Source of the DNA: a bacterium
GTDB taxonomy: Bacteria; SZUA-79; Acidulodesulfobacterales; Acidulodesulfobacteraceae
Length of the DNA stretch: 64,000 nucleotides
NCBI GenBank assembly: GCA_021798875.1
Contig: JAJZBN010000009.1
Location: 1-64,000, forward strand
Direction: 5' to 3'
Shown: piece after piece, positions 50,413 to 64,000 of the stretch
Layout of the letters: each line of letters opens with the position of its first letter
Numbering within the stretch: the stretch's first letter is position 1
Made by a program: the position numbers and the translations under genes
The notes under the pieces: model-generated
What the model was told of the DNA's origin: nothing
What the model saw: only the letters and a program-made list of their open reading frames with translations
Databases searched by the model: none

Positions 50413-50525
50413 GTTAGAATATTTCCCTGATTTATAAGGGATTGCGACGTCTTAGTATAGTGACGTCATCGTTCTCGTCACTACTATTAGTTAGAATATT
50501 TGCCTGATTTATAAGGTGTTGCGTG
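50413..50525. CRISPR. CRISPR mini-array: two repeats, one spacer
   Basis: Two 36-bp repeats (50413-50448, 50490-50525) enclose a 41-bp unique spacer. Both share GTTAGAATATTT and CCTGATTTATAAGG with the potential stem CCCT...AGGG; the second copy differs at a few bases, as terminal repeats often do. The repeat is also found at 52032, 63449 and 63525. No cas1, cas2 or complete effector lies in the window. Transcript direction is unknown. Confidence 0.8.
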
Positions 50526-52018: not shown

Positions 52019-52067
52019 GTTAGAATATTTCGTAAGAATATTTTCCTGATTTATAAGGGATTGTGTG
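52019..52067. CRISPR. Orphan degenerate CRISPR repeat
   Basis: A partial repeat (52019-52031) is directly followed by a full 36-bp degenerate copy (52032-52067) with CCTGATTTATAAGGGATTG. The following 40 bases (TATTAAGAAACCG...) match those after the repeat at 50490-50525, so this end is a duplicate of that site. There is no spacer. Confidence 0.7.
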
Positions 52068-56081: not shown

Positions 56082-56739
56082 ATGGATAACGAAAATTTTG
56101 ATAAATTTATAGAAGAAACAATATTTCCGCAGCTTGAGCCTTTAGAAAAATCACGGCAGGAAAAGGTCAATATATTTTGGGTAGTAGTTGTATTTATTGC
56201 AATACTTAATATAGTAGCATTTATTATGATGCAGAGTTTATTTACTATATTTTTATATTACTTTTATCTTTGTTTGCAGTTGGTATAACTAAAAATTCAT
56301 TATTTAAAAATTACGACGCTGAATTTTCTTCGCATGCCATAGGCAATATCGCAAAATTTATTGATAAAAATCTGACGTATAACAGAAATGCTTTTATTTT
56401 TCAAAACGAGTATAAAGCAAGCAAGCTTTTTTTAACAGCTTACGATTTAACAGTTTGTTCGATGTTTACGGGAACGATCCAGTGGTATCTATGTATGCTA
56501 TTTCTACAAGTTTAATGGACAGATTGCTGAATTTTAAGAAAAAAACAAATTCCAAAATAAACATGTCGTTAATAAATTCCACGCTTTTTCTTGCCATTAG
56601 CGGTTATAAGCCATTCAAAGTGCCTGTATTCGATACCGTTTATAATAAAAATTTATATTACGGATATTTAAACCAACTGAAATTTGCTACCGGCATAGTC
56701 GATGAATTTAATTTGAATACGAGAATATGGAGCGTTTAG
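56082..56739 (+). pseudogene. DUF3137-like membrane protein, broken by two frameshifts
   Basis: Three adjacent frames encode successive parts: 56082-56288 (FDKFIEETIFPQLEPLEKSR plus a helix), 56270-56515 (second helix and FKNYDAEFSSHAIGNI), and 56455-56739 (FDVYGNDPVVSMYAISTSLM, IVDEFNLNTRIWSV). The last matches the DUF3137 C-terminus. Single-base shifts near 56265 and 56450 would join them, though part of the middle seems lost. DUF3137 genes often accompany lemA, as here. Confidence 0.75.
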
Positions 56740-62716: not shown

Positions 62717-62824
62717 TCAAAAAAATTATAGACGGCTCATTACGAAAGAAAATATAACTCCGAGACCTAGCGTTGCAATTTATGGCGAAATGCTAAAAAA
62801 AACGAACATATGTCATAATTTTCA

Positions 62825-62856
62825 TTGACATACTTTTTAATATTTAATAATATAAT
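62825..62856 (+). promoter_or_regulatory. Candidate promoter of the Cas10-like gene
   Basis: TTGACA (62825-62830) and TATAAT (62851-62856) are 20 bp apart, longer than ideal; other AT-rich -10 matches are nearby. Confidence 0.4.
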
Positions 62857-62925: not shown

Positions 62926-62988
62926 AGTGGCAGTTAAATATTTATACGATTTATATGTCGTAAATTTTGGTAAAAAATTATGTCTATA
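62926..62988 (+). CDS. 20-codon leader peptide overlapping the Cas10-like start
   Basis: A GTG start after CGGAGC encodes AVKYLYDLYVVNFGKKLCL. Its stop (62986-62988) lies inside the start of the next gene, suggesting translational coupling. It has a better ribosome-binding site than the downstream ATG. Existence is unproven. Confidence 0.3.
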
Positions 62989-63492
62989 GTTGTTATTATA
63001 GACATAATGTCTATACAAAAATATGTTTATGCTTCGAATAAACTCAAAGAAAATATAGGAGCATCGCTAATTATATCGGGGATTTTTAAAGAAAAAATAA
63101 AGGATCCTTATGATCAATATTTTAAATCTGCATTAGAAAATGGTTATGAAGGCGGCGGTAACGTCGTATTAATTTTCAAAGATATCGACAAAGAAAAAGT
63201 AATAGAGGTTATTAGAGAATTTACTTTACGTATCTTAGAAAAATATCCAGGCATAGATTTAGCCGTTGGAATAGACTTCGATTTTGACGGCACTAATTTA
63301 GACAAAGCATACGCAGAACTCCAAATTTCAAAAAACATATTCATACCTATTTCCAATATTCCTTCACACGGTATTACCGCAGAATGTAACAGAACAGGTT
63401 TGTCATCCGAAATTTTCTATGAGTCTAATAAGCAATCGTCATATATCTGTAAGAATATATCCCTGATTTATAAGGGATTGCGACCCATTTAA
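62980..63492 (+). pseudogene. Cas10/Cmr2-palm-like protein, truncated into a CRISPR repeat
   Basis: A 170-codon frame. VIIDIMSIQKYVYASNKLKE, NIGASLIISGIF and EGGGNVVLIF match the first palm-like domain of Cas10/Cmr2-type proteins, and SHGITAECNRTGLSSEIFYE matches the following strand and loop. These proteins normally run to 600-800 residues. Here, from codon 157 on, CKNISLIYKGLRPI is the translation of a CRISPR repeat, and the frame then ends in the first codons of the spacer. The GGDD palm and all later domains are absent. Confidence 0.7.
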
Positions 63493-63559
63493 AGCCTGGA
63501 GAATTCCACTCACTGCAATCGTATGTAAGAATATTTCCCTGTTTTATAGTGATTGTGAC
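63449..63559. CRISPR. CRISPR mini-array at the 3' end of the Cas10-like frame
   Basis: The 36-bp repeat (63449-63484, AGAATAT and CCCTGATTTATAAGGG) and a 35-bp degenerate one (63525-63559) surround a 40-bp unique spacer. The spacing equals that at 50413-50525. The first repeat is nearly identical to that one. Confidence 0.82.
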
Positions 63560-63680: not shown

Positions 63681-64000
63681 GTGATTAAAACTCATCATAA
63701 GGTAATTATCGGGGATTCTAGAATAATGAATGACTTAGAGGATGAAAGCGTTCACATTATTATTACGTCCCCTCCATATTGGCAGTTAAAAGACTATGGA
63801 ATGGCCGGTCAAATAGGTTTTAACGACAGCTATGAAAGTTATATAAACAACCTTAATCTTGTTTGGAATGAGTGTTACAGAGTTTTACATAAAGGTTGCA
63901 GATTATGCGTGAACATAGGCGATCAGTTTGCAAGAGCCGTTTATTACGGAAGATACAAGGTGATTCCTATAAGGACGGAAATTATTAAATTCTGCGAAAC
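63681..64000 (+). CDS. DNA methyltransferase, beta-class (N4-cytosine/N6-adenine), partial
   Basis: A GTG start preceded by AAGAGGTC gives VIKTHHKVIIGDSRIMNDLE and then IIITSPPYWQLKDYGMAGQI. TSPPYW is catalytic motif IV near the N-terminus, as in beta-class enzymes where it precedes the SAM-binding motif. YRVLHKGCRLCVNIGDQF follows. The frame is open to the window end (106 complete codons). It may be part of a restriction or other defence system continuing beyond 64000. 63560-63680 has a TATAAT at about 63640, without a clear -35. Confidence 0.9.
   Translation, partial: MIKTHHKVIIGDSRIMNDLEDESVHIIITSPPYWQLKDYGMAGQIGFNDSYESYINNLNLVWNECYRVLHKGCRLCVNIGDQFARAVYYGRYKVIPIRTEIIKFCE

Follow-up and report, generated by a model that had tools for sequence, protein, structure and literature searches.

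The window analysed here, a stretch of 64,000 nucleotides belonging to contig C71 of a bacterial metagenome assembly (126 contigs, 97% complete), carries near its end an open reading frame in which the 5' part of a type III-D cas10 gene runs directly into the tail of a CRISPR array. The features of this locus are as follows, G029 being the MAG YF2.bin53.

62718..62810, + strand: remnant of the N-terminal part of a transposase (31 aa aligned at 61% identity with a 425-aa transposase encoded at G010:C28, E 3e-7)
62934..62979, + strand: conserved sequence just upstream of cas10, the former 5' region of the operon; homology to the DNA upstream of cas10 in G029, G028 and G021:C14 starts at about 62934
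62980..63492, + strand: whole chimeric ORF of 170 aa, namely Cas10 palm1, 12 repeat-encoded residues, then 2 spacer-encoded residues and the stop
62980..63448, + strand: 5' part of type III-D cas10, codons 1-156, palm1 domain; homology ends at 63446-63448
63449..63484, + strand: perfect 36-nt CRISPR repeat GTAAGAATATATCCCTGATTTATAAGGGATTGCGAC, identical to that of the array on contig C107 (roughly 28 repeats, same genome) and with 1 difference from the G029 III-D array repeat
63485..63524, + strand: remaining spacer, 40 nt, between the perfect and degenerate repeats
63525..63559, + strand: degenerate terminal repeat, 35 nt, which has lost the hairpin (-0.7 kcal/mol); here the old array had its trailer end

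A sequence-only reading of this DNA had proposed a Cas10-palm-like gene at 62980, and a profile search of residues 1-156 bore this out: the PADLOC profile for Cas10d (PDLC02057) was matched with an E-value of 9.7e-32 over profile positions 2-153 of 462 (the first third only). The Pfam and NCBIfam profiles gave no usable Cas10 match for the ORF and would by themselves have missed it. The similarity to III-D Cas10 profiles is confined to the N-terminal part, and the fragment is of the HD-less III-D type with the N-terminal palm (palm1) only. Among 98 other genomes the best match was the Cas10 of G029:C194 (89% amino-acid identity over 156 aa), and a more distant relative (about 40% identity) was found in Candidatus Acididesulfobacter diazotrophicus. 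The intact homologues reach about 474-506 aa, and none was found that ends where the window copy does. Since that copy stops at codon 156 of 506, it is not a full-length Cas10 with a palm2 GGDD. The catalytic motif is missing, as the sequence-only reading had noticed, because it is residue 285 of the intact homologue, within the lost part; the motif position of the fragment reads EGGGNVVL. It had also been right that the C-terminus translates a CRISPR repeat, followed by a 40-bp spacer and a degenerate repeat: in CKNISLIYKGLRPI, the codons from C to R are those of the repeat, and the final P and I and the stop are supplied by the spacer.

Structure prediction likewise gave a palm-like fold rather than one outside the RRM/palm kind. 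The AlphaFold model has a palm-like core of moderate confidence at about residues 31-120, and the confidence is very low for residues 121-170, the repeat-encoded tail included. The best Foldseek matches of this model were the minimal CRISPR polymerase (mCpol), GGDEF or cyclase domains and Csm1-type Cas10s, with mCpol OptS (PDB 9pd0) as the top PDB match (E 1.6e-4, query TM 0.43). By sequence, the solved Cas10 closest to the intact homologue is that of the III-D complex (8s9t/8s9u/8s9v, E 5e-17). The fragment model matches this protein weakly; it is full length with palm2, whereas the window copy ends after palm1. No Cas10 relatives were found in the viral contigs searched. Distant relatives of the N-terminus (30-34% identity), annotated as hypothetical proteins, are carried by four cyanobacterial plasmids (AP018315.1, NZ_CP046704.1, NZ_LR882955.1 and NC_019772.1), three of which are predicted to be conjugative.

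The array remnant consists of one perfect and one degenerate repeat around the 40-nt spacer, and cas10 abuts the first repeat at the expected place of the leader. The perfect repeat retains an intact hairpin (-8.2 kcal/mol), and its 23-nt core occurs in five copies in the window (up to 3 mismatches) versus 0 expected (100 shuffles). The spacer has no target match in the phages and viral contigs searched and no second copy in its own genome. A second cas10 suspected at C107:9690-9959 (28% protein match) was rejected, as the region consists of the array leader and the first repeat and contains four stops. Other solitary or relic repeats were observed. At 50413-50525 the window harbors a relic mini-array built on a III-A-type repeat, a 41-nt spacer separating a perfect copy from a degenerate one. 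At 52019-52067 there is a hybrid solitary repeat, in which 13 nt of a repeat start abut a full, slightly degenerate repeat without a spacer; its 3' flank is similar to that of the repeat at 50490. Perfect solitary repeats outside arrays are also present at L076:5485 (G014:C10) and L080:989 (G011:C44), and one of these two sits 3 nt past a stop codon, upstream of a III-A cas10.

A complete III-D effector locus exists in YF2.bin53 (G029:C194, JAKAQK010000067.1). Its genes lie on one strand in the order cas10, Cas7/Cas5-type RAMP, Csx10, two-part Cas7, Csx19, a 711-aa Cas7 with an insertion and a Card1-like CARF nuclease, followed by the leader and the array, and the operon is annotated as III-D (Cas10d, Cas5_IIId/Csx10, Cas7_IIId, Csx19, Card1). 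This locus resembles that of the window in its cas10, in the DNA just upstream of cas10, in its repeat (identical but for one base) and in the strand order from cas10 to array. It differs in being complete, with a 506-aa Cas10 bearing GGDD at 285 and a Pfam palm2 match at 209-355, the effector operon, the nuclease, a leader (84% identical to that of C107) and at least 10 repeats. A cas6 gene is found upstream of cas10 in G021, not in G029.

Comparison with this locus places the joint precisely. The DNA homology between the window and G029 (blastn) begins upstream of the cas10 start and extends to 63446; positions 63447-63448 are also compatible with cas10, the former as a synonymous change and the latter as a match, and the repeat begins at 63449. 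The two corresponding points in G029 are separated by 9,411 bp. No microhomology beyond 3 nt was found at the joint. The sequence-only reading had suggested a relic of a type III locus that collapsed by recombination between repeats, and the first half of this stands: the gene is a type III (III-D) Cas10 relic cut at a CRISPR repeat. The recombination is unsupported, because only the array side of the joint is a repeat and nothing in the intact cas10 resembles the repeat more than chance allows (best match 20/36, equalled by 80 of 200 shuffles). The codon changes on the window branch comprise 11 synonymous and 4 amino-acid changes, compared with 2 and 8 on the G029 branch (overall dN 0.054, dS 0.448). 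Because the frame is open and the changes on the window branch are mostly silent, the break is probably recent.

The rest of cas10 and the two other III-D genes searched for are absent from the window's own genome. A full-length Cas10 query recovered only the N-terminal piece, and neither the III-D large Cas7 nor Csx10 was found genome-wide by searches that were positive in G029 and G021; no operon with Csx10, Cas7 proteins and Csx19 accompanies the window cas10. In the genus, no undeleted or empty version of the site was found, the matches being repeats and transposase pieces only; no sister strain with an undeleted locus at the exact site was found either, the congeners being without a III-D cas10. 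The helicase of G011 lies in a different neighbourhood with no III-D genes.

The relic does lie next to a helicase and a methyltransferase, as had been noted earlier, but neither is part of the III-D operon, and the transposase remnant is situated between the UvrD-like helicase and cas10. From 63681 to 64000, and on to about C71:65757, an N6/N4 DNA methylase and then an MjaI-type restriction endonuclease are encoded, a probable restriction-modification pair. Just past the window, C71 (65822-65948) ends in the same 127 nt within csm5 as does C87 (9921-10047), and C71 carries only the last csm5 codons, straight after the MjaI-type gene. This suggests an assembly fork at k = 127, together with another truncated cas relic or a strain variant. 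The DNA at 56082-56739 is a broken-up homologue of a gene of about 306 aa that G014 and G004 carry intact next to III-A cas10, and the window from 50 to 64 kb has the look of a CRISPR/defence island in decay.

In all likelihood, the window contains a dead III-D CRISPR-Cas locus whose truncated cas10 was fused to the tail of its array by one deletion. The ancestral order would have been cas10, Cas7/Cas5-type RAMP, csx10, cas7, csx19, cas7 with an insertion, Card1-like nuclease, leader and CRISPR array, all on the + strand. A single deletion, at least about 9.4 kb long if the G029 spacing is taken as a guide, would have joined codon 156 of cas10 to the 5' boundary of a repeat close to the array's trailer end, and with it would have gone the catalytic palm2 of Cas10, every remaining III-D effector gene, the leader and almost all spacers. 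The DNA left behind would encode a palm1 fragment ending in a tail that arose by chance from translation of the repeat, and would keep a single spacer and the degenerate last repeat. One such event would explain both the end of homology at the repeat and the missing remainder of cas10, III-D Cas7 and Csx10. With no palm2, no backbone genes and no leader, the III-D effector must be dead, and neither interference, cyclic-oligoadenylate synthesis nor leader-directed spacer acquisition would be expected from the relic. On the other side, the frame of the fragment is still open over 156 codons. The end of C71, 2.4 kb past the joint, is shared with that of C87, and since the assembly is metagenomic and this shared sequence is 127 nt long, strain mixing at the island is possible.

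Such a loss is the ordinary decay of a defence locus, and the intact copy that a related bacterium retains documents it well. In the laboratory, Staphylococcus epidermidis under plasmid selection lost type III-A loci through deletion, IS insertion or point mutation (Jiang et al. 2013, PMC3784566). The likeness lies in the loss of a type III locus via large deletions and IS-related events; however, the deletions there were of 66-306 kb, mostly IS-mediated, and removed the whole locus, whereas that of the window would be of about 9.4 kb, from inside cas10 to inside the array, and its joint carries no IS, the transposase remnant lying on the opposite side of cas10. By this comparison, the window seems to record an event of the same kind in a natural population, and the scar is unusually clear. 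In the literature searched, large type III losses were known and a description of this exact joint was not found.

Three other explanations may be weighed against the deletion. The 170-aa product might be a functional stand-alone Cas10-palm protein like mCpol/OptS, as the sequence-only reading had offered, or an expressed palm1 fragment with a dominant-negative or regulatory role. The open frame, the low dN/dS relative to G029, a promoter-like site at 62825-62853 and the palm-like fold with OptS as its closest structure are in its favour. However, promoter matches were no more numerous than in shuffles (11 vs 7.1 +/- 3.2), a recent break would in any case produce the silent bias, and residues 121-170 are those predicted at very low confidence. 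OptS of the Panoptes system, likewise a small stand-alone Cas10-like palm, is a polymerase that possesses both a catalytic motif of its own and an effector partner; the fragment has neither GGDD nor an equivalent acidic motif, and its neighbours are the UvrD-like helicase, the N6/N4 DNA methylase and the MjaI-type restriction enzyme, with no Panoptes-type effector beside it. As the congeners have no homologue and palm2 is gone from a family of much longer proteins, a working palm protein seems very improbable.

Equally doubtful, and just as improbable, is that Cas1-Cas2 made or chose the joint, the broken cas10 end having attacked the leader-side edge of the repeat in a half-site integration. 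The junction lies exactly at the first base of the repeat, which is the natural attack point of Cas1; a cas1 gene is present on C85, and the cas10 side shows neither microhomology nor repeat-like sequence. Yet repeats recur every 73-79 nt, so that an exact boundary is expected by chance in about 1 of 75 cases (3-5% with an uncertainty of 1-2 nt), the joint could hide a few nucleotides of spacer, the literature searched yielded no precedent, and a single case proves nothing. If it were true, the spacer-acquisition machinery itself would have destroyed its own effector operon. Hardly to be expected, finally, is an assembly chimera, in which a CRISPR array tail would have been wrongly attached to the cas10 of another strain or locus. 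The assembly is from a metagenome, and the identical 127-mer at the ends of C71 and C87 points to graph forks in the island. That overlap, however, suggests k = 127, at which a stretch of 127 identical bases would be required for a false join; no more than a few bases are shared at the joint, and cas10, repeat, spacer, degenerate repeat and unique flank are contiguous with no Ns.

Taking the deletion as the preferred explanation, the locus is a clear fossil of III-D loss, in which the effector was severed within cas10 and fused to the tail of the array; a III-A system whose repeat is almost identical persists in the genome. Its set comprises Cas10-csm2-csm3-csm4-csm5, with csm5 running to the end of C87, a Cas6 homologue is also present, and the repeats of the genome are identical in their last 8 nt. 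If read-through transcription occurs, the leftover spacer could in principle be processed and used in trans by the III-A system and Cas6, at most. For annotators, a Cas10 profile match at this locus does not mean a working system, and the C-terminal residues of the product are a translated repeat. Should further joints of this kind in the family also coincide exactly with repeat edges, it would become testable whether Cas1-Cas2 takes part in the destruction of such loci.
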